Shown here: positions 3,058-14,962 of the stretch, piece by piece
Position numbering within the stretch: the stretch's first letter is position 1
Layout of the letters: every line of letters starts with the position of its first letter
Assembly (NCBI RefSeq): GCF_006874645.1
Contig: NZ_CP030082.1
Location: 3,224,001-3,288,000 of the forward strand
Reading direction: 5' to 3'
Source: Bdellovibrio sp. ZAP7
Lineage (GTDB): Bacteria > Bdellovibrionota > Bdellovibrionia > Bdellovibrionales > Bdellovibrionaceae
Length of the DNA stretch: 64,000 nt
The notes under the pieces: model-generated
Databases searched by the model: none
Told to the model about the DNA's origin: nothing
What the model saw: only the letters and a program-made list of their open reading frames with translations
Position numbers and translations under genes: made by a program

Positions 3058-3145
3058 GAGAATTGTATCGGCTGGAGTAAAAGGAAGGAACAATCGGTCT
3101 GCCTGCTCTCGAGTCATCCCAATGCCAGTGTCTTCAATTCGGAAA
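3058..3145 (-). pseudogene. Fragment of a histidine-kinase ATPase domain
   Basis: Read on the minus strand, this stretch gives a short frame with the G1/F-box region of a histidine-kinase HATPase domain: RIEDTGIGMTREQAD followed by RLFLPFTPADT. Glycine-box residues (D-x-G-x-G) and the F-box (LFxPF) are intact. The reading then loses all family similarity instead of continuing to the G2 box, and no H-box lies upstream. It is a decayed remnant of about 28 codons, abutting an oppositely oriented receiver-domain fragment. Confidence 0.65.
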
Positions 3146-3155
3146 GTTGCACTGC

Positions 3156-3311
3156 ATGGGTCAGAACGTCATCGCATTAACCGCACACGCGATGAAAGAA
3201 GACCGCGAACGCACCAAAGCTGCAGGTTTCGCAGACCACCTCACAAAACCTATTAACTCGAAGATACCACTCGAAACTATTGAATCAAACCTAGCCTACC
3301 CGGGAAATTGA
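3156..3311 (+). pseudogene. C-terminal fragment of a response-regulator receiver domain
   Basis: A 51-codon open frame begins at an ATG without a convincing ribosome binding site. It reads as the last half of a REC domain: VIALTAHAMKEDRERTKAAG, then FADHLTKPI. The conserved Thr/Ala switch region and the Lys-Pro pair are visible. The acidic pocket and phospho-acceptor Asp are missing. It most resembles receivers at the C terminus of hybrid kinases. The kinase fragment directly upstream is on the other strand, so the two pieces are not simply one interrupted gene; an inversion or deletion is implied. Confidence 0.65.
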
Positions 3312-3517
3312 AAGTTCCGGCCGTGTGCTGCAACAACAGAAGCTGCACGGACCTTCGTTTGGAATAATTGGCGCACACCAATCCAGTTATCTCTGGGTAC
3401 CGCCGGTGCTAACCAACAGCGTGTTTGTTTGCAATCACTATTCCCGACAATAAACAGCCGAAAATTTCTGCATTAACCTTACATTCATTCAAGACATTAC
3501 TAAATACTGGGGGCCTC
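3312..3517. other. Gene-free stretch before the aspT operon
   Basis: About 200 bp that must hold the promoter of the five-gene aspT run. I see no convincing -35/-10 pair, repeat or terminator. A TTG-initiated upstream extension of aspT exists from 3425, but it has no ribosome binding site and adds residues unlike the family N terminus. Confidence 0.4.
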
Positions 3518-5215
3518 ATGAATTGGTTATTCACTCAGCTCAAAGTGCATCCTGAGTTGGCGTTCTTCCTCACTTTGGGATTGGGATATCTGTTTGGGAA
3601 ACTTAAAATCGGTTATTTTCAGTTGGGTTCTGTGACCGGAACTTTGATCGCCGGAGTCATTATCGGTCAACTTGGTATCCACATAGGCCCGGACACCAAA
3701 GCCATCTTTTTCATGTTATTCCTATTTGCTGTCGGATATAAAGTCGGTCCTCAGTTTGTTCAAGGTCTAAAAACAGATGGTCTGCCGCAAGCTATCTTTG
3801 CATCCATAGTCTGCGTGGGCGGATTATTGATAGCTTTTGGTGTCGCAAAATTTATGGGCTTCGATCTGGGATATTCTGCTGGTCTACTGGCCGGCGCTCT
3901 AACTCAATCAGCGGTCATCGGTGTCGCACAAGATACGATCAATAGTCTTCCCAATCTCGCCGCCGATGCGAAAGCTCAATATAACAACTCCATTCCTATC
4001 GCCTACGCTGTCAGCTATATCTTCGGTACAATCGGGTTTGCCTGGGTCTATTCAAGTCTCGGTCCGAAACTTTTGAAAGTGGACCTGGTAAAAGTCTGCA
4101 AAGACTATGAACAAAAGATGGGCCAGAAAGTCGACGAGCCTGGTGTATTGTCGGCCCGACTCAACAATGTCGTGCGCACTTATAAAGTCACTGGTAAAGC
4201 ATTTGCGAATAAAAAGGTCTCTGACCTTGAAGCGTCCTTTGGGGGGCAGCAAACTCCGGTTTTTGTGACCCGCATTCGTCATGAAGGGACCATCCTGGAT
4301 CCCAACGGCAATGTAATTATCGTGCCTGGAGACGTGGTCGCCGTTTCGGGAAACCGCAAACATTTGGTTGAGCATGAAAATGAAATCGGTGAAGAAATCG
4401 ATGACCAGGAACTTTTGGACTTCAAACTTGAAATGCTAGATGTTGTCGTCACGAACAAAGCCTATTTTGGTAAAACTGCCGCCGACATCATTCGCGAAAA
4501 AGGCCAGGAATTTAGAAAAAATGTTTTCGTCAGAAAAATTACTCGTATCGAACACGAACTCCCTTTGCACGAAAATCTGACACTGAATGCCGGGGACGTT
4601 GTGACTCTGGTCGGAAAACTTGAAGACGTCGAAAGAGTGGCTAAAGAGATCGGCTCCCCCCAACATCCTACCATCATGTCAGATATGGTTTTCATCGGGC
4701 TGGGGGTTTTACTCGGGGGATTAATCGGTCTGCTATCCTTTAATGTCGGAAAAATTCCAATCAGCCTTAGCACCAGTGGTGGGGCTTTGATTGCCGGTCT
4801 TCTGATGTCGTACTGGCGCGCCACGCGTCCTACGTTTGGACAAATTCCTGCTGCGGGACTCTGGGTTTTTGACTCCGTTGGTTTAGGAGCATTTGTTGCA
4901 ATCGTGGGATTGGTATCAGGGCCCGGCTTTATTGCGGGAATCAAGGCCGTGGGTATCAGCCTTTTCCTGGCGGGTATCGCCGTCACAGTTCTTACCGCCT
5001 TGTTCTCCGTTTATCTCGGCAAATATGTTTTCAAATTCGATCCGGCGATTCTTTTCGGTGCCTGCGCTGGAAGTATGACTACTACTGCCGCGATTGGTGC
5101 AATTCAAGAAGCCGGAAAAAGCAAAGTTCCAATTCTTGGATACACGGTCACTTATGCCGTCGCCAACACCCTGAAAACCATCTGGGGTGCGGTCATTGTT
5201 TTCATGTTGCTTTAA
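3518..5215 (+). CDS. aspT: Aspartate:alanine antiporter (AspT / YidE-YbjL family)
   Basis: Inner-membrane exchanger of the AspT (aspartate:alanine exchanger) family, predicted to import L-aspartate against L-alanine. From the ATG at 3518 the protein has 565 residues, close to the family's usual size, and starts MNWLFTQLKVHPELAFFLTL. The N-terminal membrane half is followed by a cytoplasmic loop with two TrkA-C/RCK-like modules (about residues 200-380) and a second membrane half with the duplicated exchanger motif ending near GACAGSMTTTAAIGAIQE. The open frame runs upstream to 3425, but that extension is not membrane-like. The aspartate decarboxylase gene follows 27 bp later, the diagnostic partner, which makes the Asp/Ala assignment stronger than for isolated YidE-type paralogues. 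Confidence 0.92.
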   Translation: MNWLFTQLKVHPELAFFLTLGLGYLFGKLKIGYFQLGSVTGTLIAGVIIGQLGIHIGPDTKAIFFMLFLFAVGYKVGPQFVQGLKTDGLPQAIFASIVCVGGLLIAFGVAKFMGFDLGYSAGLLAGALTQSAVIGVAQDTINSLPNLAADAKAQYNNSIPIAYAVSYIFGTIGFAWVYSSLGPKLLKVDLVKVCKDYEQKMGQKVDEPGVLSARLNNVVRTYKVTGKAFANKKVSDLEASFGGQQTPVFVTRIRHEGTILDPNGNVIIVPGDVVAVSGNRKHLVEHENEIGEEIDDQELLDFKLEMLDVVVTNKAYFGKTAADIIREKGQEFRKNVFVRKITRIEHELPLHENLTLNAGDVVTLVGKLEDVERVAKEIGSPQHPTIMSDMVFIGLGVLLGGLIGLLSFNVGKIPISLSTSGGALIAGLLMSYWRATRPTFGQIPAAGLWVFDSVGLGAFVAIVGLVSGPGFIAGIKAVGISLFLAGIAVTVLTALFSVYLGKYVFKFDPAILFGACAGSMTTTAAIGAIQEAGKSKVPILGYTVTYAVANTLKTIWGAVIVFMLL

Positions 5216-5242
5216 TTAAAAATAACTGAAGGAGAGTCCCAC

Positions 5243-6916
5243 ATGTCCGTAAAGTCCGTTAAAATGAAGGTATCCCGAGCAATGCAAAAAAAGCTACAAC
5301 AACTCAGTCCTTTTGAGTTGAAAGATGCTTTGATCGAACTTGCTTCAGAAAATTCGAAAACCAGCACAATTGCGATGTTAAACGCCGGACGCGGAAATCC
5401 AAATTGGATTGCGACCGATCCACGCGAGGCCTTCTTCTTGTTAGGCCAGTTTGCTCTAACAGAAAGTAAACGTGTCTGGAATGAACCGGGTCTGGGTGGC
5501 ATGCCCCACAAAGTCGGAATCGCAAAACGACTCGAAACGTTTCTCGCTCGCAACGGCAAAGCTTTGGGAGCAGAGTTCTTAAGCAATGCTGTGGATTTTG
5601 TGGTCGACAACTATAAATTCAATGCTGATGCCTTTGTCCATGAACTGGTCGATGGGATCATCGGCGATAACTACCCGGTTCCGGATCGGATTCTTAAGCA
5701 CAATGAAAGAATCGTTCAGGCCTATTTAGATCAAGAAATGTGTGGCAATCATCCTCCCCGCGGCAGCTTTGACATTTTTGCCGTCGAAGGTGGTACCGCA
5801 GCGATGTGCTATATCTTTGATTCACTGGTCACTAACGGTCTTTTAAAAAAAGGTGATCACATTGCATTAGGTACACCAACCTTCACTCCCTATATCGAAA
5901 TGCCAACATTGGATCGTTATAAATTCAAAGTCACCCGCATCGAAGCCGACGAAATGGACAAGGCTTCAGGAATGCACACTTGGCAATACAGTGAGAAACA
6001 GATAGAAAAACTGTTGGATCCTAAAATCAAAGCGTTCTTTTTGGTAAATCCAAGCAATCCACCTTCCACGGCGGTTTCTTCCAAAATCATGAAGATGATC
6101 GTAAAGATCGTAAAAACGAAACGACCTGATCTGATCATCATCACCGATGACGTTTATGGAACCTTCGTTCCTGGATTTCGCTCTATCATGGCGGACCTTC
6201 CCCAAAATACGATCGGAGTTTACTCTTATTCGAAATACTTTGGTTGCACGGGATGGCGTCTGGGCGTGATTGCGATTCATGAAAACAACATTTTCGATAC
6301 CATGATCAGCAAATTGCCAGCAGCGCAAAGAAAAGAACTGAATCACCGCTATAGCACAATCACTTTGAAACCTGACAGTTTGAAATTCATTGATCGCATG
6401 GTGGCTGATAGCCGACAAGTGGCTTTAAATCATACTGCCGGTTTGTCATTGCCCCAGCAAATCCAAATGACGCTATTTTCACTATCATCTCTGATGGATA
6501 CTGAAAATAAATATAAGACTCTGACCCAAGACATTGTCCAACGCCGAATCCATGCTCTATTTGAAGGTTTGGGAATTCCACTTCCAGAAAATCCAATGCG
6601 CTCTGGATATTACTGTGAATTGGATCTGATGGTCTGGGCCGATCTGAAATATGGAAAAGAATTTACCAAGTTCTTAGTGCAAAACTATGAGCCCGTGGAC
6701 ATTCTTTTCCGACTAGCACAACAGACTTCCATTGTTCTTATGCCTGGTGGCGGATTCGGGGGGCCAGAATGGTCGTTGCGTGTGTCACTTGCTAATCTGG
6801 ATGATTCCGCTTACGGCCGTATCGGCAAACAACTTGCGGAAGCGGCAGAGGCTTACGTGGACGAATGGCAACATACAAAACACCTTCGTCCCGCGAGAAA
6901 AAAGAAAAGTACTTAG
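5243..6916 (+). CDS. aspD: Aspartate 4-decarboxylase / aspartate aminotransferase, PLP-dependent
   Basis: Cytoplasmic fold-type I PLP enzyme of 557 residues, converting L-aspartate to L-alanine and CO2; the family can also transaminate aspartate. The Schiff-base lysine is in SYSKYFGCTGWR (Lys331), with an aminotransferase-like NPSNPPST block upstream and DDVYG for PLP binding. The length is near that of known AspD proteins. A GGAGAG ribosome binding site sits ahead of the ATG. Decarboxylation consumes a proton inside the cell and AspT exchanges Asp(-) for neutral Ala, so the pair forms the known decarboxylative proton-motive cycle. The next gene, an RND adaptor, begins 21 bp after the stop, which suggests co-transcription with an efflux pump. 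Confidence 0.93.
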   Translation: MSVKSVKMKVSRAMQKKLQQLSPFELKDALIELASENSKTSTIAMLNAGRGNPNWIATDPREAFFLLGQFALTESKRVWNEPGLGGMPHKVGIAKRLETFLARNGKALGAEFLSNAVDFVVDNYKFNADAFVHELVDGIIGDNYPVPDRILKHNERIVQAYLDQEMCGNHPPRGSFDIFAVEGGTAAMCYIFDSLVTNGLLKKGDHIALGTPTFTPYIEMPTLDRYKFKVTRIEADEMDKASGMHTWQYSEKQIEKLLDPKIKAFFLVNPSNPPSTAVSSKIMKMIVKIVKTKRPDLIIITDDVYGTFVPGFRSIMADLPQNTIGVYSYSKYFGCTGWRLGVIAIHENNIFDTMISKLPAAQRKELNHRYSTITLKPDSLKFIDRMVADSRQVALNHTAGLSLPQQIQMTLFSLSSLMDTENKYKTLTQDIVQRRIHALFEGLGIPLPENPMRSGYYCELDLMVWADLKYGKEFTKFLVQNYEPVDILFRLAQQTSIVLMPGGGFGGPEWSLRVSLANLDDSAYGRIGKQLAEAAEAYVDEWQHTKHLRPARKKKST

Positions 6917-6937
6917 AAATGTTATAAAGGGGTAGTT

Positions 6938-8074
6938 ATGCGATTAAAAGTAATGACAGGATGTTTATTGCTTTCGATAGCAGCGTGTTCCAAAAAAGAG
7001 GCACCAAAAGCTCAACAGCTAGTGCCTGAAGTAACGGCTGTTAAAACCTCAGTAAGAGATATTCCTATCACCAAAGAGTTCGTTGGACAAATTTCTGGTA
7101 TCAGAGACATTCAAGTGCGAGCCAGAGTCGGCGGAATTTTGCTGAAACGGTATTATACCGAGGGCGATAAAGTAAAAGCCGGAAGTTTGCTTTTCAAAAT
7201 TGATCCTGCCCCTTACACAGCGGCTCTAAATCAGGCTAAAGGTGAAGTTGCCATTCAGAGGGCCCGCTTGACCAACGCCCGTCAGAGCATGAATCGAATT
7301 GTTCCTTTGTATAAAGAAAATGCTGTCAGTCAAAAAGACCGTGACGACGCGGTAGCGGTTTACAATGCCGCAAAATCTGCTTTGGATGCTGCCACAGCCA
7401 AAATGGAAGAAGCCCAGATCAATCTGGGCTATACCACTGTCACGGCACCCATCGACGGATACACCAGTAAAGAAACCGTGGCCGAGGGAAGTTTGATCGT
7501 CGCCAACTCTGAAAACTCGTTGCTAACAACTATTTCCCAAACCGATCCGGCTTATGTGAATTTCAGTTACACTGATAACGAACTTTTAGAACTGCGCCGA
7601 CTTGCTGCCAAGGGCAAACTTATCAGACCGGACAGTCTGGATAAAATCGAAGTCCAAGTCCGCATGGGTGATGGCGAACTTTATCCACAAGTCGGTTTTA
7701 TGAATTTCAACGATCAAATCGTAGATACCTCAACCGGCACGGTGAAAGCCCGCGCCAGCATAGCCAACAAAGACGCCGTTCTTCGGCCTGGACAATTTGT
7801 CAGCGTTTACGTCAAAGGCTTTATGCTTCGTAAGGTGATCACCGTCCCCTTGAAATCGGTTGTCCAAACTCAAAATGGTCCGATCATCTTTTCCGTCACC
7901 GAAAACAGTGTGGCACGCCAAATTTCCGTGGAACTTGGAGAAGAAATCGTCAATGACGTAGTCGTGAACCGAGGCTTGCGTGGCGGCGAACTGATTGTTG
8001 TCGAAGGCGCTTCCAAAATTCGCAACGGTCAAACTGTTAAGGTCGTCAGTGGCACTTCTATCGCTAAAAAATAA
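6938..8074 (+). CDS. RND efflux periplasmic adaptor (membrane fusion) lipoprotein
   Basis: 378-residue AcrA/MexA-type adaptor. The lipobox SIAAC predicts lipidation at Cys17. The order is beta-barrel/lipoyl half-motifs (VRARVGGILLKRYYTEGDKV, then INLGYTTVTAPIDGYTS), a helical hairpin between them (about 95-150) and a C-terminal membrane-proximal domain. It links the inner-membrane pump encoded next with the outer-membrane channel, and needs no catalytic residues. An AAAGGGG ribosome binding site lies ahead of the ATG. It is 21 bp after aspD and 12 bp before the pump gene, so it belongs to the same unit. Confidence 0.95.
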   Translation: MRLKVMTGCLLLSIAACSKKEAPKAQQLVPEVTAVKTSVRDIPITKEFVGQISGIRDIQVRARVGGILLKRYYTEGDKVKAGSLLFKIDPAPYTAALNQAKGEVAIQRARLTNARQSMNRIVPLYKENAVSQKDRDDAVAVYNAAKSALDAATAKMEEAQINLGYTTVTAPIDGYTSKETVAEGSLIVANSENSLLTTISQTDPAYVNFSYTDNELLELRRLAAKGKLIRPDSLDKIEVQVRMGDGELYPQVGFMNFNDQIVDTSTGTVKARASIANKDAVLRPGQFVSVYVKGFMLRKVITVPLKSVVQTQNGPIIFSVTENSVARQISVELGEEIVNDVVVNRGLRGGELIVVEGASKIRNGQTVKVVSGTSIAKK

Positions 8075-8086
8075 AAGGATGAAATC

Positions 8087-11000
8087 ATGTTTTCGAAGTT
8101 TTTCATCAATAGACCGGTATTCTCCTGTGTTATTTCTTTGATCATTATGATTGCCGGGTATGCGTCCATCAAGGCGCTTCCCATATCGCAGTATCCAGAT
8201 ATCGTGCCGCCACAAGTCTCAGTGACGACCAAATATCCAGGCGCCTCCGCCGAAACGATTTCCTCGACCGTCGCGGCTCCCATTGAACAACAAGTCAATG
8301 GGGTCGAAAACATGCTTTACATGCAGTCAACAAACTCATCGAATGGCGACATGATTTTGACTGTAACGTTTGCGATTGGAACAGATCCCGATCAAAATAC
8401 CATCAACGTTAACAACAAAGTGCAAACCGCACTGCCTACACTGCCCGAAGAAGTTCGTCGTCAAGGTGTCACAGTTAAAAAGAAATCTTCGGCAATTTTA
8501 CAGATGATTGGTTTACGTGCGCCCGATCAACGCTATGATTCCGTTTATATCAGTAACTATGCACTGATCAATGTCCTGGACGAAATCAAACGTATCCCTG
8601 GTGTGGGAGACGCCAGTATTTTCGGCGCCCAAGACTATTCTATACGCCTCTGGCTGCAACCCGATCGCATGGCTCAAATGAAAGTCACGGCTACAGACGT
8701 GATCAATGCCGTAAAAGAACAGAACGCACAGTTCGCTGCAGGTAAAGTCGGAGCTGAACCTTTAAACAATCAAGTGGATTTTACTTTTACCGTCACCACT
8801 CAAGGGCGCATGGAAAATCCAAAACAGTTTGAGGACATTATTGTTCGCTCCAACGCTGATGGTTCCAAACTTCGCGTGCGCGACATAGCCCGAGTGGAAT
8901 TGGGCGCCCTGAGTTACGACGTACAAACAAAGTGGAATGGTAAAACAGCGATCGGTATAGGTGTTTATCTGGCACCGGGTGCGAATCAAGTTCAAACCGC
9001 TGACATGGTTAAAGAAACCATGCATAACCTTTCTCAAAAATTTCCACCGGGCCTGGCATACGACATCCCATTCGACACCACAAAATTTATCGAAGTTTCT
9101 ATCGAAGAGGTCATTAACACACTGATGGAAGCAATGATCCTGGTTTTTATCGTGGTGTACTTATTCTTGCAAAGCTGGCGCGCGACTCTTATCCCTTGTC
9201 TGGCAGTTCCAGTTTCCATCATTGGTACATTTGCCGGAATGTATGCCCTTGGATTTTCGATCAATACACTCACACTTTTTGGTCTGGTCTTAGCGATCGG
9301 TCTGGTGGTCGATGATGCGATCGTCGTTCTGGAAAACGTCGAAAGGATTATGCGAACCGAAAAACTCCCCGTGAAAGAAGCAACGATCAAAGCCATGGAA
9401 GAGGTTACCAGTCCCGTTATTGCCATCGTACTCGTTCTGTCAGCGGTATTTATTCCAGTCGCCTTTGTCGGCGGTCTCGCCGGTCAAATGTACAAACAGT
9501 TCGCGATTACCATTGCCGTTTCAGTCGCAATTTCCGGTTTAGTCGCCTTGACCCTGACGCCAGCCCTTTGTGCGATGCTTTTAAAAGAAGAACATCACGA
9601 ACCAAACCGTTTCTTTCGCGGTTTCAATAATACATTCGACAAAATCACTAATGGCTATGTCGCTGGTGTAAAGTTTTTTAATAAACGCCTCTTCATCAGT
9701 GCCGTCTTATTTCTCGCTTGCGTTGGCGGAATTATTGGTATGTTTAAATTAGTGCCGGGAGGTCTCGTACCTGATGAAGACCAGGGTTATGTCTTTGGCA
9801 TTCCTAATCTCCAAGACGGTGCTTCACTTTCCCGAACTGCGGCAGTTTCCGATCAAATGGACAACTACCTAACGAATAATCCCAATATAAAAGACGTGGT
9901 TTCATTATCGGGATTTGATCTGATATCAGGTTCAAATCGAACCAACACAGGCACCAGCTTTATCACTCTTAAAGACTGGAAAGAACGTAAGAATGAAGAT
10001 CAATCAGCGACCGCCATCGTAAGAAATATTATGGGACTAAATCAAGTCATCCGCGATGGCGCCATAATGGCGTTAAGCCCACCTGCCATCGTAGGTATGA
10101 GTACCACTGGTGGTCTTGAATTCTATCTTCAAAATCGAGGCGGTTCCGATAGCAAAACTCTGGCGACAAAAACCAAGCAGTTTATGGATTCACTGCGAAA
10201 CAATCCTGCCATCGGTAATGTGGGTTCCAACTTCAGTGCCAATATCCCACAAATTTACCTGAATCTGGATCGCGAAAAAGCCAAAGCCTATCAGGTACCA
10301 ATCAATACTGTCTTTGATGCTATGTCGGCTACTTTCGGTAGCTATTATATTAACGACTTCAATAAATTTGGACGTACGTTTAAGGTGCAATTGCAGTCAG
10401 AAGGTGAATATCGTTCTCGCCCCGACGATATCCGTAACATCTATGTTCGGTCAGATAATGGCAATATGATCCCCATCACAGCTTTGGTAAATGTTAAAAA
10501 GGTGACGGGGCCTGAGATTGTGGAGCGCTTAAATATCTTTCCTGCGGCTCGTATTCTTGCCAACCCGGCTCCAGGATACAGCTCGGGTCAGGTCATAAAA
10601 GTGGTTGAAGATACTCTTGCGACCTCAAGTCTTGCGGGCGATTACAGCGTTGCATGGACTGGTACGGCCTATCAGGAAAAACTCACAGGCGGTGCTTCAG
10701 CCCAGGTATTCATCTATGCTTTGATCTTCGTGTTTTTAATCTTGGCTGCTCAGTATGAAAAATGGGGTTTACCTTTTTCAGTTTTGTTATCCGTACCCTA
10801 TTCGATTCTAGGTGCCTTGGTGGCCAATTACTTGCGTGGTCTGGCGAATGACGTTTACTTCCAAATCGCTCTTGTAACGCTGATTGGTCTTTCTGCCAAG
10901 AATGCCATTTTGATTGTCGAGTTTGCAGTAGAGAAAATGCACGAAGGACTTAGCATTGCCGATGCTGCGTACGAAGCCGCCAAACTGCGCTTCCGTCCGA

Positions 11001-11251
11001 TCGTAATGACCTCCCTTGCATTTATCCTGGGCGCAGTGCCACTGGCGATCTCCAGCGGTGCGGGCTCTGCCAGCCGTCACTCGATCGGAACAGGGATTAT
11101 TGGGGGAATGCTCGTCAGTACTTTCGTTGCGACCTTCTTTATCCCGATGTTCTTCGTTGTTATCACCGGATTCAAAATTAAAAAATCGGCTAAGAAAGAA
11201 AAAACAACTCCGCAAACTCCACCACCGATGCCAGCAGGAGGACCTTTATGA
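8087..11251 (+). CDS. RND multidrug efflux transporter, HAE1 family inner-membrane pump
   Basis: 1054-residue AcrB/MexB-like proton antiporter, the usual length. The N terminus MFSKFFINRPVFSCVISLI is typical of the family. The proton-relay Asp pair is at 409-410 in GLVVDDAIVVLENVE, and the matching TM10 Lys is Lys938 in LSAKNAILIVEFA, so the proton pathway appears intact. Two large periplasmic loops carry the porter and docking domains. The gene overlaps the outer-membrane channel gene by 4 bp (ATGA), indicating translational coupling. The substrate cannot be read from sequence. The unusual point is its place behind aspT-aspD, which would generate the proton motive force such a pump spends. 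Confidence 0.96.
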   Translation: MFSKFFINRPVFSCVISLIIMIAGYASIKALPISQYPDIVPPQVSVTTKYPGASAETISSTVAAPIEQQVNGVENMLYMQSTNSSNGDMILTVTFAIGTDPDQNTINVNNKVQTALPTLPEEVRRQGVTVKKKSSAILQMIGLRAPDQRYDSVYISNYALINVLDEIKRIPGVGDASIFGAQDYSIRLWLQPDRMAQMKVTATDVINAVKEQNAQFAAGKVGAEPLNNQVDFTFTVTTQGRMENPKQFEDIIVRSNADGSKLRVRDIARVELGALSYDVQTKWNGKTAIGIGVYLAPGANQVQTADMVKETMHNLSQKFPPGLAYDIPFDTTKFIEVSIEEVINTLMEAMILVFIVVYLFLQSWRATLIPCLAVPVSIIGTFAGMYALGFSINTLTLFGLVLAIGLVVDDAIVVLENVERIMRTEKLPVKEATIKAMEEVTSPVIAIVLVLSAVFIPVAFVGGLAGQMYKQFAITIAVSVAISGLVALTLTPALCAMLLKEEHHEPNRFFRGFNNTFDKITNGYVAGVKFFNKRLFISAVLFLACVGGIIGMFKLVPGGLVPDEDQGYVFGIPNLQDGASLSRTAAVSDQMDNYLTNNPNIKDVVSLSGFDLISGSNRTNTGTSFITLKDWKERKNEDQSATAIVRNIMGLNQVIRDGAIMALSPPAIVGMSTTGGLEFYLQNRGGSDSKTLATKTKQFMDSLRNNPAIGNVGSNFSANIPQIYLNLDREKAKAYQVPINTVFDAMSATFGSYYINDFNKFGRTFKVQLQSEGEYRSRPDDIRNIYVRSDNGNMIPITALVNVKKVTGPEIVERLNIFPAARILANPAPGYSSGQVIKVVEDTLATSSLAGDYSVAWTGTAYQEKLTGGASAQVFIYALIFVFLILAAQYEKWGLPFSVLLSVPYSILGALVANYLRGLANDVYFQIALVTLIGLSAKNAILIVEFAVEKMHEGLSIADAAYEAAKLRFRPIVMTSLAFILGAVPLAISSGAGSASRHSIGTGIIGGMLVSTFVATFFIPMFFVVITGFKIKKSAKKEKTTPQTPPPMPAGGPL

Positions 11252-12675
11252 AGAAACGATGGCTCATCGCAGGTCTTAGCACATATGGATTCTTATGTGC
11301 CTGTGCCGTGGGACCGGATTATAAACGCCCCACGGAAAATCTTCCGTCTGCCCTGTTCGCTAATTCTACAGAGCAAAACATTGAACTGGGATGGTGGCGG
11401 CAGTTTGGTGACGGAACATTAGATAAAATGATTCAATTAGCTTTCGAGCACAATTTGGATCTTGAATTGGCTTTAGCCAGAGTCGATGAAGCCCGGGCGC
11501 GCCTGGGAATTTCCAAATCCCAATACTTTCCTAGCTTAGATTTACGGGGTTCTGCCATCAGGGAAAAGGTCACTGAAACGGGCATGACGCCGATTCCGCA
11601 GGGAACTGACAGCGTCGGGAACAGCTTCCTTTTAGGATTGAGTCTAAGTTATGAAATCGATTTGTGGGGCAAAATCCGTCGCAGTAACGAATCTGCCAAG
11701 GCTCAGTTACTAAGTGCAGACTACAACCGCGCCAATGTGCAGTTGACCCTTCTTAGCCAAGTAGTCAGCGGATACTTTGCTTTGCGCTCTTTGGATCTGC
11801 AGCACGCGATTGCCCAGGACACCTTAAAATCGCGCATTGCTTCTTATGAATTGATGTTTAGACGTTTCAAGGGCGGAATTGGTTCAGAACTAGATGCCCG
11901 ACAGTCGGAATCAGAAATGCGTTCGGCTGAGGCCACTGTTTCGAAACTGGATGATCAGATTTCCAGAGCAGAAAGTTTTCTATCAGTCCTAATTGGCAAA
12001 AATCCCAAGGAGATTATAGAAACCCCTTTAGCTCGTGGCCGTAAACTGGATGAGATCGTGATGCCGCCACAGTTGCCCTCTTCGCTTCCGTCTTCGCTAA
12101 TGGAGCGACGACCTGATATTTTAGCAGCAGAGCAGAATCTGGTCTCGGCCAACGCTTTGATTGGTGTTGCGAAGGCATATTACTTTCCGAGCATTTCTCT
12201 AGGGGGAATATTCGGTTATGAAAGTTCTGAACTGAAAAATCTTTTCAATAACAGCTCTCAAACCTGGGGTTACGGAGCCAGCATCTCAATGCCTATCTTC
12301 AATGGTGGCAGAACAGGGTATTTGGTTGAAGCGGCAACGGCTCAACAGAAAGCCGCCGAGGTTCAATATCGCCAGGCGATTCAAAATGCCTTTGTCGAAG
12401 TCAGAAATGCTTTAAAAACGTATCAATCTTACGGTGATGTGGTGGAAGCCCAAAGAAAACAAGTCGTCGCCCTTGAAAGAAATCTTTATCTTGCTCAATT
12501 ACGTTATAAGAACGGTCAATCACCTTATCTGGAAGTTCTAGATGCTGAAAGGAATTTGTTTGCCGTGCAATTGGATTTGGTAAAATCCCAACAATCTCGA
12601 CTGGTGTCCGTCGTAGACTTGTATAAATCTTTAGGTGGAGGCTGGAAGGCTGACATGAAGACGTCCTCTCAATAG
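11248..12675 (+). CDS. RND outer-membrane channel lipoprotein (OprM/NodT family)
   Basis: 475-residue TolC-type outer-membrane factor. The N terminus FLCACAVGPDYKRP is the classic NodT/OprM lipoprotein start, with lipidation at the Cys preceding AVGPDY. Two repeats of the outer-membrane efflux domain follow (about 60-250 and 270-465), rich in long amphipathic helices; both contain the Y-F-P-S motif (SKSQYFPSLDLRGS and AKAYYFPSISLGG). It starts inside the pump's stop codon. Its own stop codon lies within the loop of a hairpin terminator, which closes the five-gene run. Confidence 0.95.
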   Translation: MKKRWLIAGLSTYGFLCACAVGPDYKRPTENLPSALFANSTEQNIELGWWRQFGDGTLDKMIQLAFEHNLDLELALARVDEARARLGISKSQYFPSLDLRGSAIREKVTETGMTPIPQGTDSVGNSFLLGLSLSYEIDLWGKIRRSNESAKAQLLSADYNRANVQLTLLSQVVSGYFALRSLDLQHAIAQDTLKSRIASYELMFRRFKGGIGSELDARQSESEMRSAEATVSKLDDQISRAESFLSVLIGKNPKEIIETPLARGRKLDEIVMPPQLPSSLPSSLMERRPDILAAEQNLVSANALIGVAKAYYFPSISLGGIFGYESSELKNLFNNSSQTWGYGASISMPIFNGGRTGYLVEAATAQQKAAEVQYRQAIQNAFVEVRNALKTYQSYGDVVEAQRKQVVALERNLYLAQLRYKNGQSPYLEVLDAERNLFAVQLDLVKSQQSRLVSVVDLYKSLGGGWKADMKTSSQ

Positions 12676-12685
12676 GGACGTCTTC
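12657..12685 (+). terminator. Intrinsic terminator of the aspT-aspD-RND unit
   Basis: Inverted repeat GAAGACGTCC / GGGACGTCTTC (one G.T-type mismatch) followed by a short T-rich tail. The channel gene's stop codon is in the loop, so the last codons and the terminator overlap. Confidence 0.75.
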
Positions 12686-12699
12686 TTTAAGTTTCTCTT

Positions 12700-13758
12700 T
12701 TAATACTTCTCGAACATTTCTTGAACTTTCTTTGGATCGCTTGTTTTCGTCAAAGCTAACTGAGCCAACACACGAGACTTAGCCGGATTGAACTCTCCTG
12801 AAGCCACAAACCCCGCTTTGTCATCATCAACTTCGTTATTGCGAAGAACTAAGCCAGTTGGTAACCGAGTGCTTCGAACTACCAGCAAACCATTTTTCTT
12901 TTGCAGTCTTTCCAAAATCGTCAATGAAGCCTGGTTCATATTGCCATCACCAACCCCAGCCACGACGATACCTTTGGCTCCTGACTTTACTGCAGATTCA
13001 ATCAAGTCCGGAGACATATTGGAATGAGCATAGATGATGTCCACTCTTGGAAGATTCTTGAGTGAAACACCTGCGAATTCAGATCCTGAAGTGTGCTTTT
13101 TGTTGGAAGATTCAAACCAAGAAATTTTGCCGGTGTTGATGTACCCCTCGGGGCCGCGCTCAGGACTGTGGAATGTTTCCACGTTCGTCGTATTCATTTT
13201 TTCCACGGCCCGTGCCTGGTGAATTTCGTCATTCATCACAACCAGAACACCACGTTTTTTTGCTCCAGGACTCGCCGCCACCGCGACTGCATTATACAAA
13301 TTGCCGGGACCATCTGCACTGATCGCTGTTGCCGGTCTCATCGAACCGACCAACACAACTGGCTTATCGCTTTTAACCACAAGATTTAAAAAGAATGCCG
13401 TTTCTTCCATCGTGTCTGTACCATGAGTGATGACTACACCGTCAGCATCCGATTTCAAAACTTCGTTCACACGTTTCGCAAGCTTCAACCAAACTTCGTC
13501 ACTCATATCCTGGCTTCCGATATTAGCCACTTGCTCTCCTGTAAGAGTTGCAAGGTCGCCCATATTCGGAACTGCCGCGATCAGGTCTTCGACCTTGAAA
13601 GTACCTGACTTATACCCGTACTCGCCGGCTTTCATTTGCGCACCGGCAATCGTTCCACCCGTCGCCAGAATGTGGATCTTCATTTTCTTATCAGCAGCAA
13701 AGCTGCTGCTGGTGAAAATAAGGATCGACATAAAAACATATCCTATTGTTAGTTTCAT
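12700..13758 (-). CDS. ansB: Periplasmic L-asparaginase, type II
   Basis: 352-residue exported asparaginase hydrolysing L-asparagine to L-aspartate and ammonia. A signal peptide covers about 1-21. The two active-site signatures are intact: ATGGTIAG with the nucleophilic Thr36, and THGTDTMEET (111-120) with the Thr-Asp pair. A catalytic-type Lys lies in the PVVLVGSMRP-to-NDEIHQAR region. The gene lies 25 bp after a DcaP-like porin gene on the same strand, and the two are very probably an operon. Its product, aspartate, is the substrate of the AspT/AspD pair encoded by the facing operon, which suggests a shared nutritional route. Activity on glutamine is possible, as in other type II enzymes. 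Confidence 0.93.
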   Translation of the reverse strand: MKLTIGYVFMSILIFTSSSFAADKKMKIHILATGGTIAGAQMKAGEYGYKSGTFKVEDLIAAVPNMGDLATLTGEQVANIGSQDMSDEVWLKLAKRVNEVLKSDADGVVITHGTDTMEETAFFLNLVVKSDKPVVLVGSMRPATAISADGPGNLYNAVAVAASPGAKKRGVLVVMNDEIHQARAVEKMNTTNVETFHSPERGPEGYINTGKISWFESSNKKHTSGSEFAGVSLKNLPRVDIIYAHSNMSPDLIESAVKSGAKGIVVAGVGDGNMNQASLTILERLQKKNGLLVVRSTRLPTGLVLRNNEVDDDKAGFVASGEFNPAKSRVLAQLALTKTSDPKKVQEMFEKY

Positions 13759-13783: not shown

Positions 13784-14962
13784 TTATTTAAAATCTAAGC
13801 TTGAAAAGCTATACTTCATGGTAATTTGAATACGTTGATCATGAGTTGTCGTATCATCCTTACTCATGCGACTTCCCCACAGAAATTCTCCACCGTACAT
13901 GAAGTTTTTAACTGGAGTTGAAACCAAATTGATCGAAGCATATTGACCACGTTTGAAGGCATCGTCGTTTTGCAAATCTGTGTTCTTAACTTCACTTTGT
14001 GAAAAACCAATCGTCGACATCAACTTTTCATTCCAATTGTGATCGTAATAAACAAGGAATGCTGTCAATGGAACGACCTTTACCGAAAGATTTCCTAATG
14101 ATCCTTCGGGCCCCATATCCGTCCCACCGTCATTCATATAACTTGCGATACCTTCACCTGTAACCACTCCGGCCATAATTTTCCCAGAGCCCGTCTTAAC
14201 ACTTCCGGTAACATCTACGCCCCAACCCGTTTTACTGTCACTTGGTTCATGATTACCAGTTTTAGTCTCAAATCCCACTTGTCTGACGATGCCAGCAATT
14301 TGAAAATGCCCCCAATCGCCAGCTGACTTCCACTGCGCGGTGAGGTCTGGCAACTTTTCATCTTTTTGAGCGTTGGTGACAACATCCGGGTCAATAGTTC
14401 TAACTTGTCCTGGATCAATATCGTCGCCTGGTCTTTCAATGGCTATCGACAAGGATTGATTCCCACGCATCGGAGTCCAACGAATTTGTGGATTACGGTA
14501 AAAGGCCATACCAATCGGCCCCCAATAATCGAGCATGTTCGGAAAGATGTCTCCGTCCATGAACAGTGAATTCGTTTGACCGGCAAGCCAACTACCCCAC
14601 TGACCATAAGCATGACGCAAACGAGGTGTCGTCTGACCTTCATCAGATCCCACTCCGAAAAAGTCGAATTCTAATCTCGTGAAAAGATCTTCACCGCTTA
14701 ATGGAAGCCAGGTTTGTATACCCAAGCGGCTTTGTTTGGCACTGAGTGAAGCTTGTCCATCACTACCATAGGCACCGTCGGTAGGCGCGATTTTGGATGG
14801 GCGTAAAGTGTCCTGCCACTTCGGATCAACGCGGTTAAAATCTTGAATATAATCAAGTTGCGTAAAACCATAGATTTCAAGTTTTGCTTCGGCCTGCGCA
14901 TAGGATGCAAATCCCATCGCAATCAGACCTATTCCCAATGCCCTTCTTATAAACGCATTCAT
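13784..14962 (-). CDS. DcaP-like outer-membrane porin
   Basis: 392-residue outer-membrane beta-barrel resembling DcaP-type trimeric porins. A signal peptide ends at YAQA (about 24), then YGFTQLDYIQDF and TLRPSKIAP, a block typical of DcaP proteins. Alternating aromatic strands run to a final MKYSFSSLDFK. The N-terminal coiled coil of some DcaP proteins is absent. An AGGAG site precedes the ATG. DcaP relatives favour anionic or dicarboxylate substrates (family knowledge), and the asparaginase gene 25 bp downstream hints that the porin feeds amino acids to the periplasm. Substrate specificity is inference. Confidence 0.8.
   Translation of the reverse strand: MNAFIRRALGIGLIAMGFASYAQAEAKLEIYGFTQLDYIQDFNRVDPKWQDTLRPSKIAPTDGAYGSDGQASLSAKQSRLGIQTWLPLSGEDLFTRLEFDFFGVGSDEGQTTPRLRHAYGQWGSWLAGQTNSLFMDGDIFPNMLDYWGPIGMAFYRNPQIRWTPMRGNQSLSIAIERPGDDIDPGQVRTIDPDVVTNAQKDEKLPDLTAQWKSAGDWGHFQIAGIVRQVGFETKTGNHEPSDSKTGWGVDVTGSVKTGSGKIMAGVVTGEGIASYMNDGGTDMGPEGSLGNLSVKVVPLTAFLVYYDHNWNEKLMSTIGFSQSEVKNTDLQNDDAFKRGQYASINLVSTPVKNFMYGGEFLWGSRMSKDDTTTHDQRIQITMKYSFSSLDFK

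Follow-up and report, generated by a model that had tools for sequence, protein, structure and literature searches.

Aspartate exchange and decarboxylation genes lie in one run with a CmeB-type efflux pump at a putative asparagine/aspartate-use locus of Bdellovibrio

In the 64,000-nucleotide stretch of the Bdellovibrio sp. ZAP7 genome that we analysed (the window), aspT, aspD and the genes of an RND adaptor, pump and channel follow one another on the + strand, and two genes on the opposite strand converge on them:

3424–3455, + strand: candidate promoter or regulatory block upstream of aspT, TTTGTTTGCA ... CAATAA
3518–5215, + strand: aspT, predicted aspartate:alanine antiporter, 565 aa (TIGR03802, 639 bits)
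5243–6916, + strand: aspD, aspartate 4-decarboxylase, 557 aa (TIGR03801, 813 bits)
6917–6937, + strand: aspD–adaptor junction, 21 bp, with the ribosome-binding-like AAAGGGGT
6938–8074, + strand: RND periplasmic adaptor, lipoprotein-like, 378 aa (TIGR01730, 247 bits)
8087–11251, + strand: HAE1 RND pump of CmeB/AcrB type, 1054 aa (NF000282, 1410 bits)
11248–12675, + strand: outer-membrane channel of NodT/OprM type, 475 aa (TIGR01845, 386 bits)
12657–12685, + strand: terminator-like hairpin overlapping the channel stop, 11-bp stem, weak T tail
12700–13758, − strand: type II asparaginase, periplasmic, ansB-like, convergent to the run (TIGR00520, 441 bits)
13784–14962, − strand: DcaP-family outer-membrane porin, upstream of the asparaginase (PF19577, 95 bits)

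The initial annotation had described a five-gene run on one strand, and we find all five genes on the + strand with products above the cut-offs of their families; the spacing it gave (27, 21 and 12 bp between genes, then a 4-bp overlap) matches the ORF coordinates. AspT passes the TIGR03802 equivalog cut-off of 547 bits, the model covering residues 2–563. Its frame could also be opened by a TTG at 3425, and we took the ATG at 3518 as the start despite this upstream codon because, counted from the ATG, the TIGR03802 match starts with residue 2. AspD clears its equivalog cut-off (435 bits), and its residues 16–542 align with a solved L-aspartate beta-decarboxylase (2zy2), with the SxSKYFG lysine motif in register. 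Based on family membership, we predict that AspT carries out electrogenic Asp/Ala exchange. The pump exceeds the NF000282 cut-off of 1250 bits and also matches the HAE1 model TIGR00915 at 1267 bits against a cut-off of 940; its closest relative among solved structures is CmeB (1106 bits). Its membrane part carries VVDD at 407–410 and SAKNA at 936–940, whose Asp pair and Lys we take to be proton-relay residues by homology to AcrB. With the adaptor (cut-off 95 bits), in which we spotted an IAAC lipobox by eye, and the channel (cut-off 210 bits) both inside the pump's run, the tripartite set is whole, and the three families predict tripartite assembly and export.

Gene identities and run had thus been read correctly, while the convergent asparaginase and DcaP porin had been overlooked. 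The asparaginase passes the TIGR00520 cut-off of 314 bits and reaches 451.5 bits with the L-asparaginase 2 equivalog NF008304, below its cut-off of 506, so we file it in the type II family and not in that equivalog. The closest solved structure is 1wsa, and a signal peptide is recognisable by eye. The porin scores well above the gathering score of the DcaP family (27 bits). Both genes are on the − strand and hence lie outside the predicted five-gene transcript. Acinetobacter needs DcaP porins to grow on di- and tricarboxylic acids, according to a paper that mentions neither aspartate nor asparagine (PMC12338516); aspartate and asparagine may pass through the window's porin.

Among the 24 genomes of the genus, aspD is present in five (G000, G013, G015, G016 and G023), and a search of the 369 genomes of the phylum found it in none beyond these. 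All five also hold an ortholog of the pump, which occurs in one further genome, G020, and is set apart by scores that exceed 1120 bits, where none of the others listed passes 958. The initial annotation had made its claim depend on the two blocks being adjacent in relatives, and they are adjacent in three of the five aspD-bearing genomes, with the linked run present in G000, G015 and G013. In G023 aspTD and the pump lie on different contigs. G016, which we left out of the linked/unlinked tally because of its contig ends, has contigs ending inside aspD and inside the adaptor, compatible with adjacency across a gap of ~440 bp; if the blocks were unlinked there, we estimate the chance of a suitably placed contig break at the adaptor at ~6%. 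G020 has the pump without aspTD, near a patatin gene that in the window lies beyond the porin. The raw Fisher value for co-occurrence of aspD and pump is ~1e-4, for which we claim no significance since the tree offers just two or three independent pairs. As the blocks are on separate contigs in G023 and the pump stands alone in G020, linkage of aspTD to the pump is optional and dispensable. The asparaginase is confined within the genus to the three linked genomes.

The 21-bp junction between aspD and the adaptor, the length of which is kept in G015 and G013, is too short to hold a promoter or terminator. A signal of either kind at this point had been named as evidence that the blocks are separate; scanning revealed no terminator-like or sigma70-like site on the + strand of the gap, such scans being weak evidence, with fewer sites than in shuffled sequence. 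At the far end, the proposed closure by one terminator agrees with the hairpin at the channel's stop, whose stem, though not its T tail, is kept in G013. We rejected a hidden promoter in the 3' end of aspD, where synonymous conservation shows no clear rise (0.55 in the last segment scored, 0.47 overall). The spacing and the conservation of junctions are compatible with a single transcript, and all five genes are probably co-transcribed. In G020, where the pump stands alone, ~130 bp of separate space precedes it. Upstream of aspT, 3424–3455 is the single clearly alignable block across G000, G015 and G013. Its 10-mer is absent from the aspT loci of G023 and G016; since that 10-mer recurs at window position 2918, the block is a weak regulatory candidate.

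Gene order and every junction are kept in the three linked genomes. In each of the five genes, G000 and G013 agree at 32–36% of 4-fold sites, near saturation, and the flanks vary, with the G013 block flanked differently from those of G000 and G015 both upstream of aspT and beyond the porin. That the junctions are intact though 4-fold sites are nearly saturated argues that the linkage is old, neither recent nor random, and rules out a recent accidental fusion. Two marker-gene trees agree in placing G013 as sister to G023 and G016 with G000, G015, G020 and G011. The trees of aspTD and of the pump agree on a different topology, pairing G013 with G000/G015 and G023 with G016, and AU tests reject the marker groupings for aspTD (p = 8e-63 for G013+G023, and 3e-128) as well as for the pump (p = 7e-61 for G013+G023, and 6e-49). 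Because the aspTD and pump trees agree with each other and contradict both marker genes, the two blocks appear to have travelled together and to share a non-species history, even in G023 with its separated blocks. Transfer as a joint unit would be the simplest account of the shared topology; old duplication followed by loss is a possible one.

Beyond the genus the scan covered 80 aspD loci taken from species genomes and 18 Pseudomonadota aspD genomes, together with further loci from Eremiobacterota, Verrucomicrobiota and plasmids. The Eremiobacterota locus L108 resembles the window's run in packing the same five functions tightly into one run, in the order aspD-adaptor-pump-channel-aspT, with the adaptor overlapping aspD by 4 bp. 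It differs from the window in having aspT last instead of first and no asparaginase match in its stretch. A second Eremiobacterota genome, G417, has the aspD-adaptor-pump part and the same upstream genes as L108, its contigs breaking elsewhere, and a more distant one, G372, has aspD without a pump. Given the ~46% identity of the L108 pump to the window's and the different gene order, the Eremiobacterota run was assembled separately. A Verrucomicrobia contig (L075) holds aspT-aspD-C69 peptidase-DcaP-adaptor-pump on one strand with looser spacing. The initial annotation's remark that this is not a standard arrangement holds, as outside the genus it is tight just in Eremiobacterota (two genomes, G417 in part) and loose on that one contig. 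None of the 18 sampled Pseudomonadota aspD genomes has a pump adjacent to aspD, which rules out a general association of the two. Tight adjacency outside the genus was found at one of the 80 loci of the collection scan (L108), or one of ~98 with Pseudomonadota included, where we estimate that RND density would yield about 0.1 by chance (P about 0.1). One tight case among ~98 loci is not above chance, so recurrence of the joining across phyla is suggestive only. The splitting of aspD from aspT by the Eremiobacterota pump is striking, but we judged it post hoc. The initial annotation had allowed for incidental joining; a recent accident does not fit a linkage kept over near-saturated divergence, co-inherited and assembled again in another phylum.

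Two Caballeronia cases were set aside as chance: in M1242 the pump near aspTD is on the opposite strand with intervening ORFs, and in strain NK8 it lies ~68 kb from aspD. When compared with ten further pumps from the window's genome, the asp-linked pumps of three phyla form one cluster. A special asp-tied subfamily was rejected, since the group corresponds to the broad CmeB/AcrB type and a 59% relative lacks nearby asp genes. Separately, a protein that looks secreted and belongs to no Pfam family (L108 2281–3159) precedes aspD in three Eremiobacterota genomes, also in the pump-less G372.

The catabolic neighbours of aspD recur more widely. Of 88 scanned loci (G015 and G013 excluded), 21 have an asparaginase no more than ~8 kb from aspD, usually as its direct neighbour, and Acidobacteria aspD loci (L076 and L077) have DcaP-like porins nearby. 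Two Verrucomicrobia genomes (G662 and G885) share with the window the adjacency of all four catabolic functions; there aspT, aspD, asparaginase and DcaP follow in this order on a single strand and the stretch lacks a pump, whereas the window has the pump in between and a convergent asparaginase-porin pair. With the asparaginase and porin next door, and the same gene set found beside aspTD elsewhere, the window appears to hold a recurrent asparagine/aspartate-use set with a pump inserted, and the locus to be primarily one of asparagine/aspartate use. In three myxococcal aspD loci (L101, L103 and L117), the asparaginase is 70–73% identical to the window's and AspD only 57–58%, a contrast hinting at exchange of the asparaginase gene.

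Compared with known systems, the window proteins resemble the asp operon of Tetragenococcus halophilus (aspD, aspT) in passing both equivalog models and depart from it in the three efflux genes that follow aspT-aspD; we know of no pump, asparaginase or porin in the Tetragenococcus operon. As in CmeABC and AcrAB-TolC, adaptor, pump and channel share one run. HAE1 tripartite pumps are as a rule preceded by a dedicated regulator and promoter, and a Pseudoalteromonas pump that we found has a TetR regulator beside its adaptor, whereas the window adaptor has neither an adjoining regulator nor promoter room before it. A literature search for operons joining asp genes to RND pumps, or asparaginase to aspartate decarboxylase, returned nothing relevant. 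The combination is apparently new, with every part drawn from known families.

We regard it as moderately probable that the locus is an asparagine/aspartate-use unit with a built-in CmeB-type multidrug pump, in which catabolism and efflux are switched on together. Asparagine and aspartate would enter through the DcaP porin and the periplasmic asparaginase would convert asparagine to aspartate. AspT would then exchange aspartate(−) inward for alanine(0) outward and AspD would decarboxylate aspartate to alanine, consuming one proton. The cycle would contribute to the proton motive force, a possible energetic benefit, much as Asp/Ala exchange and decarboxylation by AspT/AspD generate this force in Tetragenococcus (PMC9508256). 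The three efflux proteins, translated from one transcript with AspT and AspD, would spend the membrane-wide force on expelling putative amphiphilic or toxic compounds. These would most likely be compounds met in the same situation, for example during prey digestion, when amino acids and noxious compounds would arrive together; a presumed predatory lifestyle suggests that the unit could be induced at that time, when aspartate and asparagine would be abundant. A single operon would give cycle and pump a shared timing and dose.

A closer tie is conceivable, in which the chief task of AspT/AspD is to feed the pump with proton motive force while respiration runs low or is blocked, so that source and consumer are coupled. 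AspT/AspD are a known generator of this force (PMC9508256). Every aspD genome of the genus holds the pump, the two blocks share a common history, and the arrangement was assembled again in Eremiobacterota. RND pumps spend proton motive force, as established for AcrB, and the pump has the proton-relay motifs. However, this force is delocalised over the entire membrane; powering the pump needs no joint operon, and the order of the genes is no proof that AspTD does so. For this reason we favour co-regulation over dedicated powering. Moreover, no other of the 14 RND-type matches in the window's genome was seen joined to aspTD, and asparaginase and porin indicate nutrition as the chief role. The initial annotation's proposal that AspTD is the pump's energy source finds no support in a genus where the pump occurs without aspTD (G020) and the blocks can lie apart (G023), and we consider such self-powering quite unlikely. 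A stronger version, with a decarboxylative cycle dedicated to the pump, assembled at least twice (in Bdellovibrio-like bacteria and in Eremiobacterota) and sustaining efflux on aspartate when respiration fails, we hold to be decidedly unlikely.

Two further accounts keep the genes together for other reasons. The aspTD cassette may have landed before the pump and the joint unit persisted by transfer with no functional tie, as might be expected from the rarity and patchiness of aspD (five of 369 phylum genomes), the unlike flanks of the G013 block, trees that point to transfer, a G020 pump lacking aspTD beside the same patatin gene as in the window, and adjacency near the chance level elsewhere. 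Yet the junctions have stayed intact over near-saturated divergence while flanks scrambled, the blocks co-occur even when unlinked (G023) and Eremiobacterota assembled them separately, which leaves this account unlikely. Alternatively, the pump might export not xenobiotics but something that the pathway makes, as main product or by-product (alanine, peptides containing it or an amino-acid conjugate), in keeping with its place in the same run and, in Eremiobacterota, between aspD and aspT. But alanine is already exported by AspT, G020 retains the pump without aspTD, and CmeB, the nearest solved relative, is of the CmeB/AcrB type of HAE1 pumps that carry amphiphiles; export of pathway products is very unlikely. 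Co-expressed catabolism and efflux is the reading we retain.

Efflux pumps are commonly regarded as drawing on any membrane energy available to the cell. Were there a transferable unit with its own substrate-level source of membrane energy, it would make bacterial energy budgeting for efflux directly testable, and so would a unit that, at the least, linked efflux to the breakdown of amino acids through a shared promoter. Either also suggests how asparagine and aspartate from its prey could keep the membrane of a predator energised.

The genes bordering the two blocks differ among genomes. Upstream of aspT, the window holds scrambled remnants of a hybrid histidine kinase at 3067–3300 (receiver end on the + strand, ATPase piece on the − strand), of which G015 has an intact homolog just upstream of aspT (L032 3716–5383). 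A TetR-type regulator replaces the kinase directly upstream of aspT in G013 (L033 13748–14233), and a HutD-family gene occupies this place in G016 (L035 330–896). G020 carries a permease-like gene between pump and patatin (L066 2529–5835), where the window has asparaginase and porin, and a gene that resembles it, as judged by eye, lies upstream of aspT in G013.
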